Shown here: positions 181 through 54,001 of the stretch, piece by piece | Position numbering within the stretch: position 1 is the first letter of the stretch | How the letters are laid out: every line of letters starts with the position of its first letter | IMG/VR virus record: IMGVR_UViG_3300046530_000360 | Coordinates: 1 to 54,530 of that record | Strand: one strand, 5' to 3' | From: a virus | DNA: 54,530 nucleotides | Position numbers and translations under genes: made by a program | The notes under the pieces: model-generated | Told to the model about the DNA's origin: nothing | Databases searched by the model: none | Seen by the model: the letters and a program-made list of their open reading frames with translations, nothing else

Positions 181-270
181 GGAGAGATGCCAGAGTGGCC
201 GAATGGGACGGATTCGAAATCCGTTGTACCTTCACCGGTACCTAGGGTTCGAATCCCTATCTCTCCGCCA
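181..270 (+). tRNA. tRNA-Ser(CGA), 3' part supplied by the prophage
   Basis: A 90-nt class II tRNA. Acceptor strand GGAGAGA (181-187) pairs with TCTCTCC before GCCA. The anticodon loop TTCGAAA sits in a 5-bp stem ACGGA/TCCGT and gives anticodon CGA. A long variable arm (ACCTTCACCGGT) and T-arm AGGGTTCGAATCCCT are present, and CCA is encoded. The first 27 nt are host; everything from 208 lies in the repeat shared with the right end, so the intact gene is rebuilt by integration. Confidence 0.97.
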
Positions 271-272
271 TA
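208..272 (+). repeat. attL core (65-bp direct repeat)
   Basis: Identical to 53937-54001. It covers the anticodon arm to the CCA end of tRNA-Ser plus two further bases. Identity stops at 207/53936 and 273/54002, which defines the crossover region. Use of a tRNA 3' half by a neighbouring tyrosine integrase is the usual arrangement. The prophage unit is 53,729 bp, the offset between the two copies. Confidence 0.96.
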
Positions 273-380: not shown

Positions 381-1358
381 ATGGCCTATTACGAAAAACG
401 CGGTGACGCCTGGCGCGCCCAGATCCGTCGCAAAGGATATCCGACACTTTCAGCCACCTTCGACACCAAGGCAGAAGCCCAGCGATGGGCGGCCGAGATC
501 GAGGGGGATATGTCGCGCTCGCGATTTGTCGACACCCGGGAAGCTGAGAGCACCACGCTTAACGAAGCCCTGACCCGGTACGTCAACGAGGTGAGCGAGT
601 CGAAGAAGGGGTCGGCACAAGAGAAGGTCCGGGCCAAGAAGTGGCAGAAGTCGGAATACGCCAGCAAATCCTTGGCCGCGATCCGCTCGAGCGACATGGC
701 GGCTTACCGTGATGCCGAGCTGAAGGCCGGCAAGTCCACAGCCACCGTCCGCCTGAATCTTGCGCTGATCAGCCACCTTTATACGGTTGCGGCAAAGGAC
801 TGGGGCATTCAGGGGCTGAAGAACCCTTGCACGGCCATTCGGATGCCGAAGGGCAGTAAGCAGCGGGAGCGTCGCCCGAGCACTGCCGAACTGAAGGCAC
901 TGTACAAGCACGCCGGCGAAGTAAATGCCGAGCTGCCGATCATTATCGAGCTGGCAGTCGAGACGGCAATGCGCCGGTCAGAACTGGTAATGCTCAGGAA
1001 GGATCAAATCAGGGGGAGAGTCGCATTCCTCGAAGACACGAAGAACGGCGAGCGCCGGTCCGTCCCACTATCAACGCGGGCGGCGGAGCTCTTGGAGGGA
1101 TTGCCGACGCCAATCGACGGCGGCAGGTACTTTCATTTGAAGCTCGACAGCGTGAGCAACTATTTCGCGCTGGCGTGTGAGGCGGCGAAGATCAAAGACC
1201 TCCGCCTGCACGATATGCGCCACGAAGCGACCAGCCGCCTGTTCGAGCGCGGCCTGTCCCTTATGGAGGTGGCGAGCATTACAGGGCACAAGACCCTGGC
1301 AATGCTTAAGCGGTACACCCACCTGTGCCCGAACAATCTCGCCGAGAAGCTGGGGTAG
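381..1358 (+). CDS. int: Tyrosine recombinase (phage integrase)
   Basis: 325 aa. It catalyses site-specific recombination between the phage site and the 3' end of tRNA-Ser. An Arm-DNA-binding-like N-terminus (about 1-50) and a SAM-like core-binding domain (about 55-150) precede the catalytic domain. Catalytic residues visible: R198 (TAMRRSEL), K221, H277 and R280 (LHDMRH), H303 (TGHK) and nucleophile Y312 (KRYTH). Start at ATG 381, MAYYEKRG, matches the usual integrase N-terminus; an upstream start in another frame (328) was not used. It is transcribed toward the leftward operon and ends 2 bp from the excisionase-like gene, so int and xis are convergent. Confidence 0.97.
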   Translation: MAYYEKRGDAWRAQIRRKGYPTLSATFDTKAEAQRWAAEIEGDMSRSRFVDTREAESTTLNEALTRYVNEVSESKKGSAQEKVRAKKWQKSEYASKSLAAIRSSDMAAYRDAELKAGKSTATVRLNLALISHLYTVAAKDWGIQGLKNPCTAIRMPKGSKQRERRPSTAELKALYKHAGEVNAELPIIIELAVETAMRRSELVMLRKDQIRGRVAFLEDTKNGERRSVPLSTRAAELLEGLPTPIDGGRYFHLKLDSVSNYFALACEAAKIKDLRLHDMRHEATSRLFERGLSLMEVASITGHKTLAMLKRYTHLCPNNLAEKLG

Positions 1359-5152: not shown

Positions 5153-5593
5153 TTATTTCTTCGGCTTAGGACTGGACTTAAGCGGAGTGGTCAATGCCTT
5201 CTCGACACTCCAGCCAAGCCGCAGGCGCATGCTCAGGGTGTTGGCAGTCATGCCAATCTCGACAGCCCAGTCAGCCACGTTCTTCGTGACGCCCTTGTGC
5301 TCAAGCATCACGCAGTGGGTGCGGTTCTTGTTCTGCTCGGCCTGGGTGATCCATCGGCAGTTACCAGGCTCGTATCCCTTGGCGTTCTCGGTGCGATCAA
5401 GGGTCATGGTGCGATCAGGACATTCACCCATGTCCTCGCGGAAGTTCGCGAAGTCGCGCCAGCGCTCGCAGACCTTCACGCCGAGAGCGCCGTAATACTT
5501 GTAGTTGCCACAGGTGGGCGTATTGCAGCGCTGCATCATCGACTTCCAGCGCGCATAGGTCAGCGTGCCGCAACCGCCGTGCTTGATTCGCAT
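5153..5593 (-). CDS. HNH-like homing-endonuclease-type protein
   Basis: 146 aa. The N-terminal half has the pattern RWKSMMQRCNTPTCGNY, then YYGALGV, CERWRDF, MTLDRTENAKGYEPGNCRW and QAEQNKN. This order is typical of a family of HNH/AP2-type phage endonuclease-like proteins. The C-terminal part (KNVADWAVEIGMTANTLSMR) looks like a target-recognition helix-turn-helix. TAGGAG precedes the ATG. The gene begins inside the 3' end of the truncated avd-like gene, so it may be an insertion that replaced the DGR core. No data on activity. Confidence 0.6.
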   Translation of the reverse strand: MRIKHGGCGTLTYARWKSMMQRCNTPTCGNYKYYGALGVKVCERWRDFANFREDMGECPDRTMTLDRTENAKGYEPGNCRWITQAEQNKNRTHCVMLEHKGVTKNVADWAVEIGMTANTLSMRLRLGWSVEKALTTPLKSSPKPKK

Positions 5594-5805
5594 GTCGTTC
5601 TCCTATGCAGCAAAGTCAGGTGTGGGTGCTTGTCCCGGGTCGAGTTAGCCCGGGCAATCAACATCAGCACGTCGATGCACTCATCGATGACGCGCTTCCC
5701 GAGTGACTGCTTGAGATCTCGGGGGATGTTGCGAGTGATGTTTGTGGCCATCTGGAGCAGGCCCAGTGACACCTTGTAGATGCTCAGTTCTGTATGCATT
5801 CCCAT
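5560..5805 (-). CDS. Truncated Avd-like four-helix-bundle protein (DGR accessory)
   Basis: 81 aa. Residues 1-64 (ELSIYKVSLGLLQMATNI, NIPRDLKQSLGKRVIDE, LIARANSTRDK, HPHLTLL) follow the pattern of Avd, the pentameric accessory protein that works with DGR reverse transcriptases. Avd proteins usually have about 110-130 residues. Here the last 17 residues (HRRTTCESSTAVAAR) come from reading out of frame into the next gene, so the C-terminal helices are missing. It lies 58 bp from a variable-repeat gene, the usual place for avd. Probably a remnant; truncated function is possible. Confidence 0.6.
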   Translation of the reverse strand: MGMHTELSIYKVSLGLLQMATNITRNIPRDLKQSLGKRVIDECIDVLMLIARANSTRDKHPHLTLLHRRTTCESSTAVAAR

Positions 5806-5862: not shown

Positions 5863-6474
5863 TTAATCAATCAATTGACTGCGGACGGGGCGGACGAGCG
5901 CGGTGAGGTCCTTGCCGTCGGTGCACTGATAGCCATCATCGAAGTGCATGAGGAATGCGTAGTTGGCAGAGCGCTGCGAAGATGACCAGTACCCGGTGGG
6001 CTTGAAGGCTTCAGTTCCACCAGCTTGGAAGGCGGGCAGCGTGGTCTGAGCCGGTGACTCTTCGGTATGCGGCAGGCCGACAGGCTCGCTGTTCGGGTTG
6101 TCGCCGCTGCGTCCGTATTGCCAGTTCGTTTCGGTGGTCGGCTTTAAGTGACGATACTGCAGCTCTTGCTGATCGCGCGCCGGGATCGCCCAATCATCGT
6201 GTCCGCCAATACGCAGTGCCAGGGCCTGCTGAGCCAGTTCGCTACCAGCGGCGGCCATGGCTTCGGTGTTGGCGCGGCCATTGGTGAAGCTGTCGGCGCC
6301 TTCGATCTTCGCGCCGTACTCGCCCCAAGCGCCTACCAGTTCATGAGCCGCGCCGGCGGTGATATTCAGGTAGCGCTTGCCGGTGTCAGGGTCGCGGGTG
6401 ATACCGGAGAAGAAACCACCACCGAATGGCTGGCCAATTTCCGGGATGGCTACTGCTTGCTGTGCTGCGGACAT
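5863..6474 (-). CDS. DUF1566-like variable protein 1 (DGR-type target)
   Basis: 203 aa from ATG 6474, with GAGGAAAG upstream. The C-terminal half fits a DUF1566/C-type-lectin-like fold: HDDWAIPARDQQELQY, then YWSSSQRSAN and TALVRPVR near the end. Codons at 5905-5964 form a variable segment aligned with those of 6552-7145 and 15094-15672. All differences there fall on the first two bases of codons ending C or T. In known DGRs such folds display adenine-randomised residues for ligand binding. The N-terminus has no signal peptide. Location in the early leftward operon rather than the tail module is unusual. Confidence 0.8.
   Translation of the reverse strand: MSAAQQAVAIPEIGQPFGGGFFSGITRDPDTGKRYLNITAGAAHELVGAWGEYGAKIEGADSFTNGRANTEAMAAAGSELAQQALALRIGGHDDWAIPARDQQELQYRHLKPTTETNWQYGRSGDNPNSEPVGLPHTEESPAQTTLPAFQAGGTEAFKPTGYWSSSQRSANYAFLMHFDDGYQCTDGKDLTALVRPVRSQLID
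5905..5964 (-). repeat. Variable repeat VR1 (DGR-type)
   Basis: Twenty codons, of which 12 vary among the three paralogues, always with the third base kept. The near-constant flanks extend over 5881-5991. The downstream flank (ACCGCGCTCGTCCGC, 5890-5904) is GC-rich and identical in all three copies, like an initiation of mutagenic homing site. Confidence 0.78.
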
Positions 6475-6499
6475 GGTCTTTCCTCTTTGCGAAGGCAAC

Positions 6500-6520
6500 A
6501 AAAAAGGCGCTGCTGCGCCC
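6500..6520 (-). terminator. Intrinsic terminator/hairpin after variable protein 2
   Basis: On the minus strand GGCGC-AGCA-GCGCC is followed by TTTTTT (A-run at 6500-6505 on the plus strand). It lies 32 bp past the stop of the 6552-7145 gene and just before the ribosome site of variable protein 1. It may act as terminator and also as the hairpin expected behind a DGR variable repeat. Confidence 0.65.
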
Positions 6521-6551
6521 GGTGCCGGATCAAGAACGAATTATTGAAGGA

Positions 6552-7145
6552 TCAAATAAAGAATCTGCGGACGGGGCGGACGAGCGCGGTGGTGATCTTG
6601 GCGCTGTAGCCCTGATTGCCATCAGCGAAGTGCATGTCGAATGCGTCGTTGGCAGAGCGCTGCGTTGACGACCAGTACGCGCCCTTGGCGATCAGGTCAT
6701 ACACCCAAGCCTGATGCAGCTGAGCAGCTGCTGGAAGATCGAAGTCAGCGTGCCCCTCTGCGGTATATGCCCGAGCCTCTTCTGCGGCTGGATGCCCCCC
6801 GGCGGCGATCAGCGCATCGGTATTGGCTTTGCCGTCCCACTTGCTGGTTGCAACAGATTCCTCGCCGTAGCGACCCCACTTGTGCTCGCCGAGGTCTTTG
6901 TCGGCGAAGATCAGGTAGTGCTCCGGGATATCACCGCGCGCCGGGACAAAGCCGCCATTAACACCGCCTTGGCCTGGCCAATATTCACCGACCGCCGGGA
7001 TGGGGCAGGGCACAACCGGCTGAACGTTGGCCGTCGGCGGCAATGTCTGGGCGAGCAGGCCAGCCATCAGCACCTGCACCATCCGCTCAGAGGTTCCTTT
7101 GATCTTGAGGCCGTCAGCCTCAATGGAAATCGTGTTGGTCTTCAT
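6552..7145 (-). CDS. DUF1566-like variable protein 2 (DGR-type target)
   Basis: 197 aa, AAGGAAAG before ATG 7145. It has an N-terminal helical region (LKIKGTSERMVQVLMAG), a Pro-rich linker, and a body sharing DKDLGEHKWGRYGEE with protein 3. The C-terminal lectin-like segment (DFDLPAAAQLHQAW, AYWSSTQRSAN, TALVRPVRR) carries variable repeat 2. It is adjacent to protein 1 and probably co-transcribed. The different N-termini of the three paralogues against near-identical C-termini argue for copying of the C-terminal segment, not simple gene duplication. Confidence 0.8.
   Translation of the reverse strand: MKTNTISIEADGLKIKGTSERMVQVLMAGLLAQTLPPTANVQPVVPCPIPAVGEYWPGQGGVNGGFVPARGDIPEHYLIFADKDLGEHKWGRYGEESVATSKWDGKANTDALIAAGGHPAAEEARAYTAEGHADFDLPAAAQLHQAWVYDLIAKGAYWSSTQRSANDAFDMHFADGNQGYSAKITTALVRPVRRFFI
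6591..6650 (-). repeat. Variable repeat VR2 (DGR-type)
   Basis: Aligned codon by codon with VR1 and VR3. Examples of variable codons (VR1/VR2/VR3): TAC/GAC/CTC, CTC/GAC/ACC, GAT/GCT/GGT, TAT/AAT/AGT, TGC/GGC/CTC. Constant codons between them include TTC, ATG, CAG and AAG. Confidence 0.78.
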
Positions 7146-7155
7146 TGTGCTTTCC

Positions 7156-7479
7156 TTACGAGGTGAGGTGCGGTGATTGGCTGGCGCGCTTCATTGAACG
7201 AAGCTCGCCTTGGAATGTTTTACGGTGGAAACCGATATGGCGCTCGACGTCGTGCCAGGTTGATCCTGCGGCGCGCATGTCGAGCGCCATCGTCAGATAT
7301 TCGGGCGTGAGCTGTTTGGGCTTGCCCTTGTTGCCGAGCACGATCCCGGCGGCGTTGAGGTAGCGCACGACGGTTGGGTATGAACAGCCGGCTGCGGCGG
7401 CGATGTAGTCAATCGAATTGCCCTCTGCGTGCATGCTGAAAATCAGCCCGACCGAGTCAGGCGATAACTTGGCTGTCAT
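7156..7479 (-). CDS. Helix-turn-helix phage protein
   Basis: 107 aa. ATG 7479 is chosen over ATG 7485 because AGAGGA lies 7 bases before it. Two helix-turn-helix-like segments are visible (GNSIDYIAAAAGCSYPTVVR and AGSTWHDVERHIGFHRKTF). Probably a small DNA-binding protein; target unknown. It precedes the variable-protein genes in the same transcription direction. Confidence 0.6.
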   Translation of the reverse strand: MTAKLSPDSVGLIFSMHAEGNSIDYIAAAAGCSYPTVVRYLNAAGIVLGNKGKPKQLTPEYLTMALDMRAAGSTWHDVERHIGFHRKTFQGELRSMKRASQSPHLTS

Positions 7480-7495
7480 GCTCATTCCTCTATGG

Positions 7496-7735
7496 TCACT
7501 GGACAGATGCCCTTGGGGCTGGAAGCTCTTTGGTGGACTCGATGAACCCCGTGGTTTCTACGTCGCCATCCATCGCGTTGATGAACAGCACCTCGACTTT
7601 CGCCGAATCAACCAACACCTTCGCAACCTCTGCAATCGCCTTGGCGCGCTCGATCTCCATTGGCTTGTCAGGGTCTTGAAGCGCTTCAAGCGTGGCGAAC
7701 AGGTGGTTCCTTAGGTCAGTCATCTTGTTTTTCAT
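7496..7735 (-). CDS. Small helical phage protein
   Basis: 79 aa, GAGG 7 bases before ATG 7735. The central part (MEIERAKAIAEVAKVLVDSA, then KVEVLFI) resembles small proteins often encoded next to phage HNH or DNA-binding genes. The start overlaps the end of the HNH gene by 20 bp. Function unknown. Confidence 0.55.
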   Translation of the reverse strand: MKNKMTDLRNHLFATLEALQDPDKPMEIERAKAIAEVAKVLVDSAKVEVLFINAMDGDVETTGFIESTKELPAPRASVQ

Positions 7736-8447
7736 TGGATGCCTCGCTGATCGCTTTCTTGAGCTTGCCGAGTTGGCGAATAGTGGATTTGAGTTCTGAC
7801 GGGTAGCGATGGATCGTATTGCGACGCATGTTCTCGGCGCGGGTGATCAGTTCAAGATTGTCGATATCGATATGCGCTGTGTTCTTGTCGCGGAAGACGA
7901 CGATGTGTCCAGGGGGCACCGTGCCGTTGAATTCCTCCCAGAGGATCATGTGCACCGACTTCCATCGGCGCTGCGGCGGCCCGTCATCGCGAATCTTGCG
8001 CTGCCGGATACCGTCTTTCGTGACTCGCTCTGTGCCAATTGGCTGCAGCAGGAGGGCGGCTTTGCCGTTCACTGTCCCCACCTTAAAGCGCGTTTCCGCT
8101 GAGCGCCCGCCGGCGGTGTAGCTCAGGCCCTTGTTCCAGGAGGTCTGGCCTTTCTGGAATCGTGTGCCGGTACCAGGATTGTTTTCTCGGCGCAGCCTGC
8201 ACGCATGCTCGCTAGCCAGGTAGGCTTCGCTGCGCTTCAATCCGAGCAGGTACGCCTTGTTGTAGATCGACCAGTACGGGCGCTGGAAGGCTTGGATGAG
8301 CTCAGGCATTGGCGTGTCCGGGTACAAAGCGCAGAGGCGGGATTCGTCATCTGGCGACCATGGCTTACGGTCTTTGGTGCGCCGCTTGGGCTCACGACTA
8401 AGACGGGCCAGCGCGCTATCAAAAGCTTGTTGAGCAATTGGATTCAT
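7716..8447 (-). CDS. HNH endonuclease
   Basis: 243 aa from ATG 8447 (MNPIAQQAFD). N-terminal helices with a Myb/HTH-like region (KPWSPDDESRLCALYPDT) are followed by the C-terminal HNH fold: VHMILWEEFNG, PPGHIVVFRDKN, IDIDNLELIT and ENMRRN. These are the H, N and H/N positions of the HNH_3 type. A longer frame starting at 9011 is open but its N-terminal 188 residues overlap another coding gene and are rejected. Likely a free-standing phage nicking/homing endonuclease. Confidence 0.8.
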   Translation of the reverse strand: MNPIAQQAFDSALARLSREPKRRTKDRKPWSPDDESRLCALYPDTPMPELIQAFQRPYWSIYNKAYLLGLKRSEAYLASEHACRLRRENNPGTGTRFQKGQTSWNKGLSYTAGGRSAETRFKVGTVNGKAALLLQPIGTERVTKDGIRQRKIRDDGPPQRRWKSVHMILWEEFNGTVPPGHIVVFRDKNTAHIDIDNLELITRAENMRRNTIHRYPSELKSTIRQLGKLKKAISEASNEKQDD

Positions 8448-8494
8448 GGCTTCGCCTCGTCGCTGGCGTGATTCGTTGAAGTCGGAAGCGGTGG

Positions 8495-8806
8495 TTATTC
8501 GTCGTTGCAGATGCGCAGCGATTCGCGCTGATAGGCGATAGCCAGTTTTGCCGACACGTTTTCGGGTATCTCGTAGGCGTGTCGCGGGGGAGAAAGCAGC
8601 GGCGCGGACTTTTGAGGCCCTAACGCATGAAGATGGTGAATCATCAGCGTGATGGCCTCGCCCTGTTCCTCGATGCCGCTCCAGGCCATAAGGTCTGTCA
8701 GTGCCTGGCGTGTGCCGGCCATGCAGTGCAGTCTGATCTCTTCCTCGCCGCGAGTCTTTCGCCTCGCCGCAGTCTTGGCTGAGCGCGCTTTCGGTTCGGC
8801 TGCCAT
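8495..8806 (-). CDS. Hypothetical phage protein
   Basis: 103 aa. A basic N-terminus (KARSAKTAARRKTRGEEEIR) is followed by an RHH-like helical segment (TRQALTDLMAWSGIEEQGEA). A small DNA-binding role is possible but not shown. It sits between the HNH gene and another helix-turn-helix-like gene. Confidence 0.55.
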   Translation of the reverse strand: MAAEPKARSAKTAARRKTRGEEEIRLHCMAGTRQALTDLMAWSGIEEQGEAITLMIHHLHALGPQKSAPLLSPPRHAYEIPENVSAKLAIAYQRESLRICNDE

Positions 8807-8808
8807 GG

Positions 8809-9459
8809 TTACTCCTGCTGCTTAGGCGCCCTAGGGAAGAAGGCCGGTCTTGCGTTGGATTTTGGATAGTCGATGTCGAAATTTTCGAGGATGCGAGTGA
8901 AAGCGCGATATGAAATGCCAGCCTTCTCGCGTGCTTGGTTGCGAGTAAGGCCAAGTTCCTTGAATGCCTTGATGCGTTCAGCGTCTTTGGCATCTTTCTC
9001 TTCATCAACATTGCAGCGCAGGTTAGCTTGGCTTTTGAATGCGGCCCGCTGAAACTTGAAGCCGTTGGCTTTGGCCATATTGGTCAGTGTTCGGCGCGAC
9101 AGACCAGTGCTCATGATCGCTTGCGCGTAGGTCATGGTTTCGGCGAGCTTTCTGATGCGCTTGATCAGTTCCAGCTTTTCCCGAGATCGCTCTATGGCCC
9201 GTTCCTCGCGTTCAATATCGCGCTGTGCAAGTTTATCGCGCCATGCTGGCGTTTCTGGCTTTGTTACCGGCTTGGCTTTGGCTGCCTTCTTCTTCGGTGG
9301 CGGCTCATGCCTCACTGGCGGCGGCACAAAGCTCGGTCCCTGCAATACCTCAATAGTCCCTCCTTTGTTCAAGAAGGCCTCCTGAAGCAGGGCAAGTTCG
9401 TGGCGTTGAGGGTCGAGTATCTGGATCATGGAAAGCTCTGTGCTGACGTATGCGTTCAT
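8809..9459 (-). CDS. Phage protein with coiled coil and helix-turn-helix segments
   Basis: 216 aa. Pro/Lys-rich linker (PPPKKKAAKAKPVTKPE), coiled coil (about 75-105), then two HTH-like stretches (TMTYAQAIMSTGLSRRTL and LTRNQAREKAGISYRAF). The start overlaps the exonuclease stop by ATGA (9456-9459), suggesting coupled translation with the recombination genes. Function unknown; DNA binding is inferred. Confidence 0.6.
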   Translation of the reverse strand: MNAYVSTELSMIQILDPQRHELALLQEAFLNKGGTIEVLQGPSFVPPPVRHEPPPKKKAAKAKPVTKPETPAWRDKLAQRDIEREERAIERSREKLELIKRIRKLAETMTYAQAIMSTGLSRRTLTNMAKANGFKFQRAAFKSQANLRCNVDEEKDAKDAERIKAFKELGLTRNQAREKAGISYRAFTRILENFDIDYPKSNARPAFFPRAPKQQE

Positions 9460-10085
9460 GCTGCACCTCTCATTCGGCCTCGCATTTCCTGTTCAAGTTC
9501 GGCCAGCTCTTCTAGGAAGGCCTTGATCTCGGCTTCCATCTCGCGACCGCGCTTGAAGTCGAAGTCGTAGCGGAAGCAGACGTATTGCAGCTCTTCAGGC
9601 AAGCGGTCGTCGTAACTCACGAAGTCCGCCCAATGGCGACCTGTGCAAGCCATCTGGGCCAGCATCTGCCATTCGTACTGCGGGTCGTGGCGGCGTGACT
9701 GCATGGTTGCGATGTGCGTGGCAGTGTTCGGGCACTTGATCTCCAGCACTCCGTCATCGCCGGCGAGCCCGTCAGGCGACGCCCCGAAGCATTCAATCTT
9801 CGGGTGCATTACCAGCCCGGTTTCGACGACCATCAGGCCTTTGTCGGCCTCGTAGGCCATGCAGGCAAATGGCTCAAGCTCAACGCCTCGTTGCACAGCG
9901 GCATTACGGGACAGATCCATGCCGCCTTGCTGGCCGGTCAGTCGTTCGCACAGCAACTCCATCATGTAGTTTTTGCGAGTGGCAGAAGGCGCGCCACCGC
10001 GCCCGCTGGCCATCACATCCTTAACGCGGCTGGCCGTGACGTTACCTAGGCGTGCCGCAAACCACTCTTCGCTACGCTGCTCCAT
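9456..10085 (-). CDS. YqaJ/lambda-exonuclease-family nuclease
   Basis: 209 aa. A 5'-3' double-strand exonuclease that makes 3' tails for the annealing protein. Features of the PD-(D/E)xK fold: EEWFAARLGNVTAS near the N-terminus, E71 in RGVELEPFA, D105 in SPDGL, and E115-x-K117 in LEIKCP. Length is close to lambda Exo (226 aa). It overlaps recT by 14 bp, the standard exonuclease/annealase pair. Confidence 0.9.
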   Translation of the reverse strand: MEQRSEEWFAARLGNVTASRVKDVMASGRGGAPSATRKNYMMELLCERLTGQQGGMDLSRNAAVQRGVELEPFACMAYEADKGLMVVETGLVMHPKIECFGASPDGLAGDDGVLEIKCPNTATHIATMQSRRHDPQYEWQMLAQMACTGRHWADFVSYDDRLPEELQYVCFRYDFDFKRGREMEAEIKAFLEELAELEQEMRGRMRGAA

Positions 10086-11016
10086 CTAACACCTCCTCGG
10101 CTTGGCCTTCGATAGGCGCAGTCTCTGCTTTGATGGCCTCGCCGCGCCTAGTCACTTCCGCCTTGAAGCGAGCGTGACCTGCGGCGTCTTTGGCTTGCTT
10201 CATGGCTGCCGTACCCTGGTGATAAACCTCGGTCAGTGCTTCCAGACTTCCAGCCTTCATCGCAAGGTCGATCCAGCTGTTGACCAATTCGGGATCAGTC
10301 GGTGCCGAACCGGGCATTCCGACCAAACCTTCTCCGCCATCCGTGTTCAGGTGGTGGATGGCCTGCTCAAGCCGGTCTGTCTTCGGCCAGAACTTGTAAC
10401 CTCGCTTCACCACCGTCTTTTTCGCCATCTCGCCCGGGTCTGTCACCCAAGGGCAAGACTTCTTCTTATCGACCCATGCCCTCCAGGCGCTCGACCGGTC
10501 TCGAATGGCGTTGACGTCGTCAATGCCCATCGTCTCAGTTAGGTAGTCGCCGTCGGCGGTCTTGACCACCACGTATACGCCAACCGCCTCGCCGCGATCT
10601 TTGGCGAACGGTTTGTAGGTATGGGTGGGAGGCTTGTCGAAGCCGTTCAGTGCGAAGACGTCAGCTTCATGGACAAGTTCAGCCTGGGCCCAGCGTATGG
10701 CGCCGGTGGCCATGGCCAGATCCATCAGTCCGATATAGCTGATGTCGAGGCATATCTTGCCGTCGCGCGGGACCAGATAAGCCTGTTTCTTAGCTGGATT
10801 CAGGCTGATACCGATAGCCGCGATGTTCGTGATTGCGTTAACCACCGACTGCCGGTTTTGCAATGCGATCTTGGTGGCATATTCACCGGCAGTGATAATT
10901 TGGATGGCGAACTCTGCCTCTCGATCAAAGTTGATCGAACGGTCGGTTAGGACATTGGCGAACTGGTTGCGGGCGCCGTAGATGTCCTGAGTAATCGTTG
11001 CGATTGCTTGACTCAT
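10072..11016 (-). CDS. recT: RecT-family single-strand annealing protein
   Basis: 314 aa. Anneals complementary ssDNA during phage recombination and replication. The RecT core is clear: NAITNIAAIGISLNPAKKQA, YLVPRDGKICLDISYIGLMD, then VYVVVKTADG and WVTDPGEMAKKTVVKRG. The C-terminal tail is acidic and variable. It lies directly upstream of the nuclease gene and downstream of a coiled-coil gene often paired with recT in phages. Confidence 0.93.
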   Translation of the reverse strand: MSQAIATITQDIYGARNQFANVLTDRSINFDREAEFAIQIITAGEYATKIALQNRQSVVNAITNIAAIGISLNPAKKQAYLVPRDGKICLDISYIGLMDLAMATGAIRWAQAELVHEADVFALNGFDKPPTHTYKPFAKDRGEAVGVYVVVKTADGDYLTETMGIDDVNAIRDRSSAWRAWVDKKKSCPWVTDPGEMAKKTVVKRGYKFWPKTDRLEQAIHHLNTDGGEGLVGMPGSAPTDPELVNSWIDLAMKAGSLEALTEVYHQGTAAMKQAKDAAGHARFKAEVTRRGEAIKAETAPIEGQAEEVLDGAA

Positions 11017-11023
11017 GACAACC

Positions 11024-12181
11024 TCAGTATGTAATTGCGATGGCTGGGATCTTGCGCTGAGCGATCAGAGTGATCGCCTGCTTGGCGCATTCCTCGGTCA
11101 TACCGCCGGCGACAAATGCTTCCAGAGCCGTGCGATTGATCTTCTTCTTGTGCTCAAGATCGGCTTCGCGGGCTTGGGCCTGCTCCAGTTCAAAGGCCGC
11201 TGCTGCGGCTTGGCGGGCCAGTTCGTTCTGGCGCGCTTGCTCGACGGCCTGCTCTTGGCGCTGCACAGCAGCGATGCGGTCTTGCTCGGCGCGCTGCTCA
11301 GCTGCCAACTGGTCGGCCTTGGCCTGTGCTGCTTGGCGCTCGGCTTGCTCGGCCTGGAGTTGCAATTGCAGGCGCTGACGTTCTGCGGCTGCTTCTGCGT
11401 CCCGTGCAGCTTGCTCTGTGGCGCGCTGTGCGGCGGCAGCCTGGTCGAGCAGTTCCTGTTCGCGTCGTGCAGCAGCATCGCGTTCGGCCTGAGCGCGTTG
11501 CTCAGCTTCGATGCGAGCCTGTTCGGCTGCGGCACTGGCAATCGCTACCTCGCGATCACGCTGGGCCTGTGCTTCGGCCTCAGCGCGCAAACGGACCAGT
11601 TCGGCCTGCTCAGCTTCGTATTGCTGGCGAGTGGAGAGGGCGGCGCGCAACTTGGTCAGCGTCGATTCCTTGGCGCGGGCGGCTTCGGTTTCGAATTCCT
11701 CCCAGTGCTCGCCCATCTGCACGCTTTCAACCGACGTGATGGATTCCAGCAGGACGGCGGCATTGACGTCGGCCAGGTCCGTGCAGAAATCGTGAATAGC
11801 TTGAACCGCATCCACATGCTTGTCCTTGCGAGCAGTCTCGGCAGCTTCCCAATCAGTCAGCGGCTTGCGAGTTTCGTCGCGCAGCGCATCCATGGCGTCG
11901 ACGAACTCGCGAAGTTCAGCCTCCACGACCCTGGGCATTTCCTTGAGGCGCTTCAGGTATTCGCGGCCAGGCTTCTCGACGGCCACCTTCGACTTGCTGA
12001 CCTTGGCGGCGAGCGAAGCGATGCGGTCGCGGCCTTTGGCGGTGGACAGGTCCGGCACCTGGGAGCTGACTTCCTCCTTCACGGCGTGCAGGAATGGCTT
12101 CAGGCCGTCCTTCACGTAGATGGCCGGGGCATTGGCTTCGCTGATGTCGTCGATGGTTACGGCAATTTGATTCGCAGACAT
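11024..12181 (-). CDS. Long coiled-coil phage protein linked to RecT/Exo
   Basis: 385 aa. N-terminal about 150 residues form a helical domain (PDLSTAKGRDRIASLAAKVS, RPLTDWEAAE); about 170-340 is an almost uninterrupted Ala/Glu/Gln/Arg coiled coil; the C-terminus (KKINRTALEAFVAGGMTEEC) is a small helical end. Proteins of this layout are common beside recT genes in temperate phages, but the role is not known. The large antisense frame at 11015-12229 is a by-product of the repetitive codon use. Confidence 0.75.
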   Translation of the reverse strand: MSANQIAVTIDDISEANAPAIYVKDGLKPFLHAVKEEVSSQVPDLSTAKGRDRIASLAAKVSKSKVAVEKPGREYLKRLKEMPRVVEAELREFVDAMDALRDETRKPLTDWEAAETARKDKHVDAVQAIHDFCTDLADVNAAVLLESITSVESVQMGEHWEEFETEAARAKESTLTKLRAALSTRQQYEAEQAELVRLRAEAEAQAQRDREVAIASAAAEQARIEAEQRAQAERDAAARREQELLDQAAAAQRATEQAARDAEAAAERQRLQLQLQAEQAERQAAQAKADQLAAEQRAEQDRIAAVQRQEQAVEQARQNELARQAAAAAFELEQAQAREADLEHKKKINRTALEAFVAGGMTEECAKQAITLIAQRKIPAIAITY

Positions 12182-12410
12182 GGGGAGCTCCTTCCGCCAT
12201 GCAGGCGGCGTATGAGTTCGAGTTATTGAGTGAGGATGGGATATCAGGTCACAAACGGTCTGGGTTAGCCCGCTTGGCTAGGTCTCCACAGACAGCCTTG
12301 CAGGTGAAGGACCAGCTCCTATTCGCCCTGATTGGCGGTGATGTCTTATCGCGCTCTTGCCGCCTTGCGCGTCTGGGCCATCCAGTTAAGGCCCTCCCAG
12401 CGAGGGTGAA
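12182..12410. other. Non-coding stretch in the leftward operon
   Basis: No convincing gene on either strand. The minus strand holds GGAAGGAG just before the ATG at 12181, which sets that start. The rest shows only an 11-codon frame (MAQTRKAARAR) with no support. Confidence 0.5.
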
Positions 12411-12527
12411 TTACTGCGTGAGCTGACTGACGTAGGAGCTGGCCAGCATGACGAAGGTGGTGCCGAGGAGGACAACAGCTGAGCCGCGCCACACGTACAG
12501 TCGGCGGGCCTTTTGGAATGCGGTCAT
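12411..12527 (-). CDS. 38-aa single-span membrane protein
   Basis: Basic N-terminus (MTAFQKARRLYVWRG) followed by one membrane span (SAVVLLGTTFVMLASSYV), N-in by the positive-inside rule. The ATG overlaps the stop of the upstream gene as ATGA. Function unknown; one of a run of very small proteins. Confidence 0.55.
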   Translation of the reverse strand: MTAFQKARRLYVWRGSAVVLLGTTFVMLASSYVSQLTQ

Positions 12528-12766
12528 CCGATCACCTCGCTATAGAAAGGCTTGTCCGCAGGCAGTTCGTCGTTATCCATGACTGCACATTCGTGATCGC
12601 GTAGACCGTCAAATTCAGGCTTGCGCCAAGCGCGAATATCGATCCAGTCGCCGAAGTCGCCAGGGTAATTGTTGATACCGACCAACTTCGCTCGAGTTAT
12701 GGTTTCGGCGAAGACCATTTGACAGCCATATGCTGGCTCGCCGTCGTGAACCATCCAGCACTTCAT
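12524..12766 (-). CDS. Hypothetical phage protein
   Basis: 80 aa starting MKCWMVHDGEPAYG. Compact globular look with many aromatic residues; no domain recognised. ATGA overlap with the gene upstream and the gene downstream shows translational coupling. Confidence 0.6.
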   Translation of the reverse strand: MKCWMVHDGEPAYGCQMVFAETITRAKLVGINNYPGDFGDWIDIRAWRKPEFDGLRDHECAVMDNDELPADKPFYSEVIG

Positions 12767-12882
12767 TTCGCTACCGCCACAGGAAGGCTGATCTGCCGCG
12801 GCTCGCCGTTCTCTTTGAACAGGCTGTACTGCATGAGCAGGATGGTCAGGCCGAAAGCGAGGATCCAGTAGAAGGTTTTCAT
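12763..12882 (-). CDS. 39-aa single-span membrane protein
   Basis: MKTFYWILAFGLTILLMQYS is one membrane span, followed by a short polar tail (KENGEPRQISLPVAVAK). The preferred start is ATG 12882; the longer open frame to 13137 overlaps other small genes. The end overlaps the next gene as ATGA. Confidence 0.55.
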   Translation of the reverse strand: MKTFYWILAFGLTILLMQYSLFKENGEPRQISLPVAVAK

Positions 12883-12884
12883 GG

Positions 12885-13016
12885 CTATTTCCCCTTGTAC
12901 CGAACCGGCACGAACGTGTACTGCTCCTGCCCGTGGTGATGGACAGACCAGAACTCCATGTCGATGCGGCTCATCAGTTCCTGGAAGGTGTAGATGCGGG
13001 TGGCGAGGCGTTTCAT
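12885..13016 (-). CDS. 43-aa hypothetical protein
   Basis: MKRLATRIYTFQELMSRIDM, then EFWSVHHHGQEQYTF and a basic end. ATG 13016 has GGAG nearby upstream. Not related to anything I recognise. Confidence 0.5.
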   Translation of the reverse strand: MKRLATRIYTFQELMSRIDMEFWSVHHHGQEQYTFVPVRYKGK

Positions 13017-13018
13017 GG

Positions 13019-13255
13019 CTAAAGCTCCTGTGGCTGGTCAGGCAGCGGTATCCAGTGCGTTGGCGTCCATACGGCTTCTCGCCCGCTCGACTCCTGCCAA
13101 TGAGGGACATGGTTTTTCGCGTAGGCGTTGGTGCCAAATGTCAGCTCGCCGACGTACCCTGGCTTTCCGGCAATTACGCGGACGCGCTGTGCGTATTTCG
13201 GGGCGGTCATGTCTATTTCTGGGAGCCTGTCACTGCATGCGATCCAGCTGCTCAC
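13019..13255 (-). CDS. DUF551-like protein
   Basis: 78 aa starting at GTG 13255, which overlaps the upstream stop as GTGA. The opening SSWIACSDRLPE and closing WTPTHWIPLPDQP are the hallmark ends of DUF551, small proteins common in phages and of unknown function. A diverged relative lies at 14304-14504. Confidence 0.75.
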   Translation of the reverse strand: MSSWIACSDRLPEIDMTAPKYAQRVRVIAGKPGYVGELTFGTNAYAKNHVPHWQESSGREAVWTPTHWIPLPDQPQEL

Positions 13256-13386
13256 GTCAGCCTCACAACCAGCATGCCGCGCCGGGTCTGAACCTTGATG
13301 CGCTGAGGCAGATCAGCGACCAGAAAAAAGCCTCGCGATTGCAAGGCTTGGGTCAACGCTGCGTGGGTTCTCGCGATGATGGTCAT
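13252..13386 (-). CDS. 44-aa hypothetical protein
   Basis: MTIIARTHAALTQALQSRGF followed by a short strand-rich end (MLVVRLT). GCAAGGAG lies upstream of the ATG, and the stop overlaps the next start. Function unknown. Confidence 0.5.
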   Translation of the reverse strand: MTIIARTHAALTQALQSRGFFLVADLPQRIKVQTRRGMLVVRLT

Positions 13387-13592
13387 ATCGCATCTCCTTG
13401 CCTGGTGCGCACAGCAATGCGCCGGACGCGCTCGCAGTAGTGGTTGAACTCTTCAGGGTCGATGGCATTGATCGAGAAGTAGGCGATCACAAGGGTTTCC
13501 GCTCTGGCCTCATCAACATCGCCGGCGCCCGGGAGCAGCATGGTGTCGATTGCCGAATCGATGGCGTTTACCGCGATTTCATGATGATTCAC
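13383..13592 (-). CDS. Hypothetical phage protein
   Basis: 69 aa from GTG 13592, which overlaps the previous stop as GTGA. Helical and acidic (AIDSAIDTMLLPGAGDVDEA), ending FNHYCERVRR plus a basic tail. The longer frame to 13691 is rejected because it reads as Arg-rich shadow sequence. Confidence 0.5.
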   Translation of the reverse strand: MNHHEIAVNAIDSAIDTMLLPGAGDVDEARAETLVIAYFSINAIDPEEFNHYCERVRRIAVRTRQGDAI

Positions 13593-14026
13593 AGTTCGCC
13601 ACCTACGTCGTCTTCTGCGGCTTCGCGCTGGGCGGCTACGGCGTCGGTCGCGTGGTCGCGCAGGAATTCGGCGGCGATCTCTTCCAGGCACTGGCGTGGA
13701 CGGTCGTTGCCGAGCAGATACTTCGCGTGAGTGACTGCTTCGCTTTGGCTGCCGACGATCACGCTCAAGACCAGCTTGGCGAACGAGTCTCGGTCGTCCA
13801 GCCCGTCGATCTGGCGCTCATTCAGGTAGAGCTGCAGGTAGGTCGCGTACTGGGCTGCAGTCACCTTCTGCGGAGTACCACGGCGGCGCTTCCAAGTGAC
13901 ATCGCAACCGCGCACCAGCTGCTCAGCCGAATGCTCCAACCATTCCCGCTCTTCTTCCGTCTCGCTGACTTCAGGAGGCAACTGCGCATCGTGCCAAGCC
14001 TGACAAATCTTCAATACTGCGTTCAT
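13589..14026 (-). CDS. Hypothetical phage protein
   Basis: 145 aa. Helical with an acidic start (PPEVSETEEEREWLEH) and Lys/Arg-rich loop (TWKRRRGTPQKVTAAQYATY). No domain assigned. Stop/start overlaps on both sides. Confidence 0.55.
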   Translation of the reverse strand: MNAVLKICQAWHDAQLPPEVSETEEEREWLEHSAEQLVRGCDVTWKRRRGTPQKVTAAQYATYLQLYLNERQIDGLDDRDSFAKLVLSVIVGSQSEAVTHAKYLLGNDRPRQCLEEIAAEFLRDHATDAVAAQREAAEDDVGGEL

Positions 14027-14283
14027 GGCTGAGCCCTCTGGTTCTGCGCTCGGTAGTGGCGCACAAAGCCGTCAGTGAGACGCTTGATGATTCGCGGGTA
14101 TCGCTCGGGATCATGAAGGCGACAGGGCAGCTCTTCGCGCCCCCACATCTCGTGGTCGCAGTAGTCGCACTCACAGTGCTTGTTCAGCAGGGCGCGAGCT
14201 TCAGCTTTGCAAGCAGCTCGCAACGTGAACCATCGGCGGCCACCGCCACGGAAGACGGCAGCATGCTCAGTCGTGACGTTCAT
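14023..14283 (-). CDS. Small Cys/His-rich protein
   Basis: 86 aa with NKHCECDYCDHEMWG, a cluster that could bind zinc, followed by CRLHDPERYPRIIKR. The basic character suggests nucleic-acid contact. ATGA overlap with the next gene. Confidence 0.55.
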   Translation of the reverse strand: MNVTTEHAAVFRGGGRRWFTLRAACKAEARALLNKHCECDYCDHEMWGREELPCRLHDPERYPRIIKRLTDGFVRHYRAQNQRAQP

Positions 14284-14303
14284 GGTCGCCTCCGATCAGC
14301 GGG

Positions 14304-14504
14304 TTATTCGGTTGGTGGTACCGGTGTGTCAAACCAGCGAACAGGGCGACTGGCATATTGGTGTTTGCATTTTTGGTAGCTGGCAAGAAGCCATGTGCCC
14401 ATATGGTTCAAGCGCCCAACACGTTGCGAGCCGTCTTCGAGTTGAATCGGTACATCCCTATATCGCTCGGGCAGCTCATCGCTGCACTTGATCCATCCGC
14501 TCAT
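14304..14504 (-). CDS. DUF551-like protein, diverged
   Basis: 66 aa from ATG 14504: SGWIKCSDELPERYRDVPI, then RPVRWFDTPVPPTE at the end. Same start and end motifs as the protein at 13019-13255, so the operon has two relatives. Confidence 0.65.
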   Translation of the reverse strand: MSGWIKCSDELPERYRDVPIQLEDGSQRVGRLNHMGTWLLASYQKCKHQYASRPVRWFDTPVPPTE

Positions 14505-14516
14505 CTCAATCTCCAA

Positions 14517-14639
14517 TCAGGCGATATACCCGCCCGGCATTGTGGTAACGACCTTCCGAGGTGCGTCATGCATCCGACCTTTGGCGCAGTCGTGGACGTC
14601 GGGGCGGGGTTTTCGGGGTGCGAGGGCTGTGCGTTTCAT
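14517..14639 (-). CDS. 40-aa basic protein
   Basis: MKRTALAPRKPRPDVHDCAK, then HDAPRKVVTTMPGGYIA. Strongly basic, overlapping the previous stop as ATGA. A small nucleic-acid-binding peptide is possible but not shown. Confidence 0.45.
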   Translation of the reverse strand: MKRTALAPRKPRPDVHDCAKGRMHDAPRKVVTTMPGGYIA

Positions 14640-14866
14640 GATTGGCTCCGAGCTACAAGCATTGCGTCGGCCATTGCGTAGGCAAGCTTCGCCCTTCCAG
14701 CCGCGTCAGGCTCTGTGAAAAAAGTAGATCCGATATCGGTGTAAACAGGCTCCAATAATGCCGGTAAAGCCTTGGCCGCGAAGTAATCGCGAAGGGTCAT
14801 GCCTGCGTTGTGACCAAGCATTTCGCTGCTGGTCGGGAAAGCTGGTTCTACGAATTCTTTGCTCAT
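14636..14866 (-). CDS. Hypothetical phage protein of the YAMADAML type
   Basis: 76 aa from ATG 14866. FVEPAFPTSSEMLGHNAGMT, TLRDYFAAKALPALL and LAYAMADAMLVARS form a pattern seen widely in small phage proteins of unknown function. A terminator lies 23 bp upstream (14889-14915), so it heads a sub-operon or relies on antitermination. Confidence 0.7.
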   Translation of the reverse strand: MSKEFVEPAFPTSSEMLGHNAGMTLRDYFAAKALPALLEPVYTDIGSTFFTEPDAAGRAKLAYAMADAMLVARSQS

Positions 14867-14888
14867 CACACTCACCTCCAATCGTCCA

Positions 14889-14915
14889 ATAAAAAGCCCG
14901 GACTAGCCGGGCTTT
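14889..14915 (-). terminator. Terminator inside the leftward operon
   Basis: Minus-strand stem AAAGCCCGG-CTAGT-CCGGGCTTT followed by TTATT. It separates variable protein 3 from the small-gene cluster. Readthrough would need antitermination from the boxA leader. Confidence 0.75.
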
Positions 14916-15093
14916 ACCACCTTACGTAACGACCGGGCGCATGAGGCGTCGGATCGTGGCTGTCTGTTACATGGCTGCAAATCCTCCGCGTTGAGATGCT
15001 GCAGGTGGCCGGCACTGCCCGGCACGTATCAGGCCTGACCTCTCGTACCTGAGAAGCCCCGCGATTCACCCGCAAAGAGCAATTAATGAAGAA
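14916..15093. other. Non-coding gap behind variable protein 3
   Basis: 178 bp with no gene. It holds a GGCCGG/CCGGCAC-type imperfect repeat (about 15008-15026) but no strong hairpin directly after the stop, unlike the other two variable genes. Confidence 0.4.
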
Positions 15094-15672
15094 TTAAATA
15101 GGCAATCTGCGGACGAGGCGGACGAGCGCGGTGAGGTTCTTGACGTAGTTGAGCTGACTGCCATCACCGAAGTTCATGGTGAATGCGAGGTAGGCAGAGC
15201 GCTGCGAACTCGACCAGTACCAGGTCTTCTCGAAGTGCTCAGCGATGGTCTGCCAGGCGTGATTCAGCTCACCGATGCTGGGCAGGTAGAAGTCGTGGTG
15301 GCCGTCGACGGAGTGATTGCCGGCTGCCTCTGCTGCCGGGAACGATCCATCAGCCTCAAGCAGGGTCGTGGTATTCAGGATGCCGTTGACCTTGCTGGTG
15401 GCGGCTGTTTCGGTTCCGTACTCGCCCCACTTGTGTTCGCCAATGTCTTTGTCGGCGAAGATCAGGTGGTAAAGCTCGCCATCCTCACCTTGCCGGATAC
15501 CGGCGTAGATGCCGCCTTGCCCCGCCCAGTAAGTGCCGATCGCCGGAACATCGCTGTTCGCCGCCGGCGCCTTGGCTTGCTCGCCACCAAGAACCATGTT
15601 CGCAAACATCAGCACCAGCGCCTTGTCGGGGCTGCTGATCGTTGATTCGCCGCAAGTGATATGAGTCATCAT
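15094..15672 (-). CDS. DUF1566-like variable protein 3 (DGR-type target)
   Basis: 192 aa, AAGGAG 8 bases before ATG 15672. It shares IGTYWAGQGGIYAG and DKDIGEHKWGEYG with protein 2. The C-terminal lectin-like part (HHDFYLPSIGELNHAW, WYWSSSQRSAY, TALVRLVRR) carries variable repeat 3. It lies 8 kb from the other two targets in the same orientation. One base in the otherwise constant flank differs (CTC for CCC, giving L in place of P). Confidence 0.8.
   Translation of the reverse strand: MMTHITCGESTISSPDKALVLMFANMVLGGEQAKAPAANSDVPAIGTYWAGQGGIYAGIRQGEDGELYHLIFADKDIGEHKWGEYGTETAATSKVNGILNTTTLLEADGSFPAAEAAGNHSVDGHHDFYLPSIGELNHAWQTIAEHFEKTWYWSSSQRSAYLAFTMNFGDGSQLNYVKNLTALVRLVRRLPI
15133..15192 (-). 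repeat. Variable repeat VR3 (DGR-type)
   Basis: Third copy of the 20-codon variable segment; constant flanks extend over about 15109-15219. Every difference from VR1 and VR2 within the segment is at codon position 1 or 2 of NNC or NNT codons. Confidence 0.78.
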
Positions 15673-53936: not shown

Positions 53937-54001
53937 ACGGATTCGAAATCCGTTGTACCTTCACCGGTACCTAGGGTTCGAATCCCTATCTCTCCGCCAT
54001 A
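53937..54001 (+). repeat. attR core (65-bp direct repeat)
   Basis: Identical to 208-272. Here the 3' half of tRNA-Ser is not joined to a 5' half, so it is a silent fragment that marks the host end of the original gene. Confidence 0.96.

Follow-up and report, generated by a model that had tools for sequence, protein, structure and literature searches.

The subject of this analysis is a stretch of 54,530 nucleotides (nt), i.e. positions 1 to 54,530 of the IMG/VR virus record IMGVR_UViG_3300046530_000360, hereafter called the window, which is a Pseudomonas-type prophage. Three of its genes end in variable repeats (VRs) of 96 nt, and comparison with related phages strongly supports the view that these repeats are genuine products of a diversity-generating retroelement (DGR) of the Bordetella-phage type. 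Judging from its sequence, the phage no longer has this element: the template repeat (TR), the reverse transcriptase (RT) and half of the accessory gene avd have been replaced by an HNH endonuclease gene, a present state that the initial annotation overlooked. We consider it likely that DGR loci are invaded by homing endonucleases, which eliminate the RT and leave the VRs stranded, and that the DGR of the window was displaced by an HNH gene in this way.

The variability of the three VR genes was examined over 29 aligned codons, of which 12 are variable and 17 identical. The 20 variable bases are distributed over the codon positions 1, 2 and 3 as 10, 10 and 0, i.e. the third base of the variable codons never differs (C in ten, T in two), exactly as the initial annotation had stated. 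A random placement of 20 changes would spare the third positions with a probability of about 6e-5. The window contains the VR motif three times, as compared to 0.01 occurrences expected from shuffled sequences, and of the 21 bases at which the VRs disagree with one another 20 fall on an adenine of the template (hypergeometric P=2.6e-12). Each 96-nt VR agrees with the reconstructed template at 81-83 bases, while the identity between the three proteins is about 40-46%, which is in accordance with the earlier remark that the bodies of the proteins diverge more than their ends. All three proteins match Lcl_C (DUF1566), the family named in the initial annotation, below the curated cut-off of Pfam. 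An AlphaFold model of a VR protein, in which the VR has low confidence, gave no significant match in a structure search of PDB.

The machinery that belongs to such repeats was found in sibling phages. Scanning IMG/VR with the invariant bases of the VRs gave at least 119 stretches, and the matching repeats fall into two classes, VRs that mostly have 0-3 AAC/AAT codons and TRs that mostly have 10-12. Where VR and TR occur together the order of the locus is VR, VR, avd, TR, RT, all on one strand. The closest siblings are L119 (a 55.8-kb record) and L123/L013 (a 53.1-kb record). In each of them avd, TR and RT share a strand with two proximal VRs and a distal one, the latter corresponding to the window gene at 15.1 kb. 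The TR of L123, with which the VRs of the window were compared, reads CAG CGC TCT GCC AAC AAC GCA TTC AAC ATG AAC TTC GAT GAT GGC AAT CAG AAC AAC AAC GAC AAG AAC AAC ACC GCG CGC GTC CGC CCC GTC CGC. The sibling RT has an intact frame of 388 amino acids (aa), matches PF00078 and is 32% identical to brt of phage BPP-1; the sibling Avd matches PF22296 and is homologous to bAvd.

When 187 distinct VRs were compared with 27 TRs, about 48% of the template-adenine sites were changed as opposed to about 0.4% of the other sites. It is this confinement of change to template adenines, together with near-identical TRs and adjacent Avd and RT genes in the siblings, that identifies the window repeats as DGR products, and the adenine mutagenesis proposed in the initial annotation is borne out. 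Adenine-rich templates, on whose presence in relatives that proposal had been made to depend, are abundant there. The suggestion that an AAC/AAT-rich template was copied holds for most codons; two of the 12 derive from GAT and GAC in the sibling TR, which is why the codon sets GAT/GCT/GGT and GGC/GCC/GTC keep their G. When VRs, including those of the window, are set against the TRs of the family, the template adenines in CAG and AAG codons are almost never altered, which suggests either selection or context-dependent mutagenesis; the ATG codon was fixed by the search pattern, so its adenine lies outside this observation.

A sequence search of the whole window revealed no TR, and no PF00078 match to an RT was obtained at E<=10 across the whole record. 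Compared with a complete DGR, the window has the VRs and lacks the TR, the RT and an entire Avd. The 65-bp att repeats, which represent the 3' end of tRNA-Ser, are perfect copies at both ends and short stretches of flanking DNA are present outside each of them. The prophage is therefore complete and the components were lost, i.e. no template lies beyond an edge, and a truncated record is ruled out as the cause. The alignment with L119 stops at window position 5608 and restarts at 5164. The avd remnant comprises residues 1-66, which are 98% identical to the sibling Avd, and the terminal codons of the HNH gene are also those with which the sibling RT gene closes (CCGAAGAAATAAGC). No relative having the exact avd/HNH junction of the window was found in the viral_contigs or genome_contigs collections.

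At least 13 further phages, among them Aurca01, Medea1 and vB_PaeS-D14O, show the same kind of replacement, which involves at least four groups of HNH genes, usually with a 3' stub of the RT left behind. The nuclease of the window (type A, HNH-A) has just two homologues at comparable loci. In L125/L178 the HNH protein is 90% identical to that of the window and its gene interrupts the TR after ...AACTTCGATGA, followed by an RT stub, with no full RT in the record; in L126 the protein is 66% identical and the gene has an avd fragment on one side and an RT stub on the other. Type B was found at the same site in five records (L182-L186) and is always followed by an RT stub starting at about codon 344. 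In L174/L182 and L175/L183 the TR breaks off after some 20 bases, and the avd match of L186 stops at residue 100. Type C (L176, L056 and L193), which matches HNH_3 in Pfam, directly follows the second VR gene, with the RT stub or its last codons behind it. Type D, a NUMOD4-HNH protein in which Pfam recognizes NUMOD4, is likewise encoded right behind the second VR gene in two isolates, Aurca01 and Medea1, also with an RT stub. In the P. aeruginosa phage vB_PaeS-D14O, an Lcl_C gene whose end resembles a VR is accompanied by Avd, by an HNH gene with 47% identity to type B and by an RT stub. Full-length RT genes are kept in the Pseudomonas phages SC_8_H2H8_2017 and Cruim01; Cruim01, with its intact RT, and Aurca01, with a displaced one, are both recorded on P. 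syringae CC1557. In the public annotation, BK061588.1 40518-41232 and PP179334.1 32203-32694 appear as 'phage protein' and 'RecB', where in fact HNH endonucleases followed by RT stubs are found.

A strong HNH match (E<1e-40) and a full-length RT never co-occurred in 35 VR-bearing records. Among the matches listed, which are a biased sample, about 80 VR-bearing records have a full RT, 6 have an HNH replacement and 2 a plain deletion. In single-VR records without an RT (L170-L173, L057, L077 and L101), neither an RT stub nor any of the four HNH types was found in the vicinity of the VR; of these the Lcl_C records L170, L171, L173, L077, L057 and L101 are possibly further cases of stranded or remote VRs. 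Plasmid records gave just a short, VR-sized match, and no RT stub was found in them.

The nuclease genes appear to travel on their own. The identity between L183 and L185 is mostly 50-65% in the VR/avd region, reaches 98-100% along the greater part of the type B HNH gene, remains above 90% into the RT stub and drops to about 42% past the stub. This peak indicates that the cassette moved between divergent DGR loci, i.e. type B is laterally mobile. Moreover, two starting points of the RT stub recur: the N-S-Y-F-G codons for type A (in L178) and type B, and the K-D-R codons for types C and D. The fact that different nuclease groups share two narrow junction zones suggests that the 3' end of the RT gene is the target at which these nucleases would cut.

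The events that we propose are as follows. A DGR of the Bordetella-phage type diversified three presumably lectin-like phage proteins from one adenine-rich template, and a free-standing HNH homing endonuclease gene would then have displaced the 3' half of avd, the TR and the RT without damage to any of the three target genes. Related Pseudomonas phages would have undergone such a displacement repeatedly, by at least four HNH groups and usually with a 3' stub of the RT remaining, most simply because the endonuclease promoted recombination at the DGR locus. From then on the VRs would be frozen, unless a co-resident DGR acts on them in trans. The signature of the VRs, the TR, Avd and RT of the siblings, the absence of TR and RT from a complete prophage, the replacement junctions, their recurrence and the conservation of the nuclease above its flanks are read from the sequence; from these we infer cleavage of the RT locus by the nuclease, homing as the cause of the loss, and halted diversification. 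As a wider proposition, we lean slightly towards the view that the RT genes of DGRs are a recurrent target of homing, in which several distant HNH groups independently invade and delete RT and TR, a natural off-switch that locks the variable proteins and leaves DGR-made genes hidden from RT-anchored surveys.

Several observations weigh against displacement by a nuclease. The type A protein is not recognized by Pfam, its structure model (pLDDT 84.6) has no significant match in a structure search of PDB, and it was assigned to the HNH endonucleases from PHROGs and conserved residues. As the left junctions are not the same in all phages, the deletion may have been an event separate from the insertion. 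Moreover, the RT has been lost with no HNH gene at the site in L177 (5388-5519, avd cut at residue 38) and in L102 (2847-3092, RT cut after about 80 residues). These two cases, and the fact that HNH genes are common insertions in phages, fit a course in which an ordinary deletion first took the RT and HNH genes landed later, without a causal role, in DNA that had become non-essential. We regard this as unlikely, if the most serious of the alternatives, since at least four distant HNH groups converge on two narrow places in the RT 3' region, the N-S-Y-F-G and K-D-R codons, which would not be expected of a neutral scar.

The timing of the loss bears on a second alternative. One change outside the template adenines, G79T (CGC to CTC), is common to all three VRs of the window, which lie up to 9 kb apart, and is present in neither sibling TR. 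All three were thus copied from one TR that has since been lost, and the simplest reading is that this TR carried CTC and rewrote the three VRs before it disappeared. The sole further change of this kind is C88T in the distal VR, so the loss is either recent on that scale or the VRs have been refreshed in trans. In the latter case a second prophage of the cell would still be altering the VRs with its own TR, Avd and RT, and the phage would be a satellite of a foreign DGR. In RT-less phages the saturation of the adenine sites is indeed as high as elsewhere (292/612 vs 2404/5039) and change at other sites is nearly as low (6/1308 vs 42/10993), and in the RT-less pair L183/L184 the first VRs disagree at 20 of 31 template-adenine sites with only 1 base different in the 500 bp upstream and 2 in the 100 bp downstream. 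However, no TR with the CTC signature, i.e. no possible donor, was found in viral_contigs or genome_contigs. The L183/L184 data also fit a very recent loss of the RT after normal diversification, since the HNH cassettes of the two are nearly identical as well; a recent arrival of the nuclease is favoured there because it requires nothing unobserved. Continued diversification in trans therefore seems rather improbable to us. Finally, ordinary divergence of paralogues, or positive selection with gene conversion, could account for changes in the window that are non-synonymous and lie in what is likely the ligand-binding surface, but its probability is close to nil, as change is limited to template-adenine sites, including synonymous GCA>GCG/GCT changes in relatives, and the TR and RT of the siblings refute it.

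The positions of the features are listed in Table 1. Comparison with the annotated phages Aurca01 and Medea1 shows that the VR genes adjoin probable early recombination genes (RecT-like, YqaJ-like exonuclease and TolA-like). As these neighbours are not tail genes, the variable proteins of the window may not be receptor-binding proteins. A second HNH gene (window 7716-9011, minus strand; HNH_3, PF13392, E=6.6e-14) is located immediately upstream of the proximal VR genes; a DNA methyltransferase (L119:5579-6643) holds the corresponding place in the sibling L119.

Table 1. Features of the window, with changes in the VRs given relative to the TR of sibling L123.
Feature	Position	Strand	Remarks
attL	208..272	+	65-bp perfect repeat within and just past tRNA-Ser(CGA) 181-270
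Integrase	381-1358		located after attL/tRNA-Ser
HNH endonuclease gene, type A	5153..5593	-	146 aa; phrog_3377 HNH endonuclease, E=2.4e-49; last codons CCGAAGAAATAA
Replacement segment	5165..5607	-	443 bp in place of 1,519 bp of L119 (L119:8720-10238: avd from codon 67, TR, RT)
Truncated avd	5560..5805	-	phrog_3206 'Avd protein of DGR'; unrelated residues after residue 66, frame entering the HNH gene
Proximal VR gene 2	5863..6474	-	203-aa Lcl_C (DUF1566) protein, phrog_4245
VR of proximal gene 2	5881..5976	-	96 nt; 13 template-adenine changes and G79T
Proximal VR gene 1	6552..7145	-	197-aa Lcl_C (DUF1566) protein, phrog_4245
VR of proximal gene 1	6567..6662	-	96 nt; 11 template-adenine changes and G79T
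Distal VR gene	15094..15672	-	192-aa Lcl_C (DUF1566) protein, phrog_4245; about 8 kb upstream; a distal VR gene occupies the corresponding position in siblings
VR of distal gene	15109..15204	-	96 nt; 12 template-adenine changes, G79T and C88T
attR	53937..54001	+	perfect copy of attL

If nucleases do repeatedly remove the engines of DGRs, the loss of a DGR has a specific cause and is not simple decay, and stranded VRs could serve as a clock, in which change at non-adenine sites dates the loss. Phages that have lost the RT but still carry variable genes made by a DGR go undetected in surveys which, like that of Roux et al. 2021, take the RT gene as their starting point (PMC8144416). The paper on Medea1 makes no mention of a retroelement, an RT or homing. 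A search of open-access full text for homing endonucleases displacing DGRs gave no earlier report.

The system resembles the DGR of Bordetella phage BPP-1 (mtd/avd/TR/brt) in the adenine-specific change in the C-terminal VR of the target gene, and the siblings have an Avd-family gene, a TR and a brt-homologous RT as well. It differs from it in having three target genes, one of them distal, near recombination genes, and, in the window, in the lack of the TR, the RT and half of avd. DUF1566/Lcl_C target genes are found at the locus of the window both in Cruim01 and SC_8_H2H8_2017, where the RT is intact, and in Aurca01, Medea1 and vB_PaeS-D14O, which have an HNH gene and an RT stub; the nuclease sequences and junctions of the latter three are unlike those of the window. 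The free-standing HNH homing endonucleases of T4-like phages (mob genes) are inserted next to conserved genes or inside them, with co-conversion of the flanking DNA (PMC2988022). The nuclease genes described here are likewise small, intronless HNH genes that are laterally mobile and better conserved than their flanks. In contrast to the mob genes, more than a split neighbour gene is seen here: the larger part of the RT has disappeared, often together with the TR and avd, presumably after cleavage.

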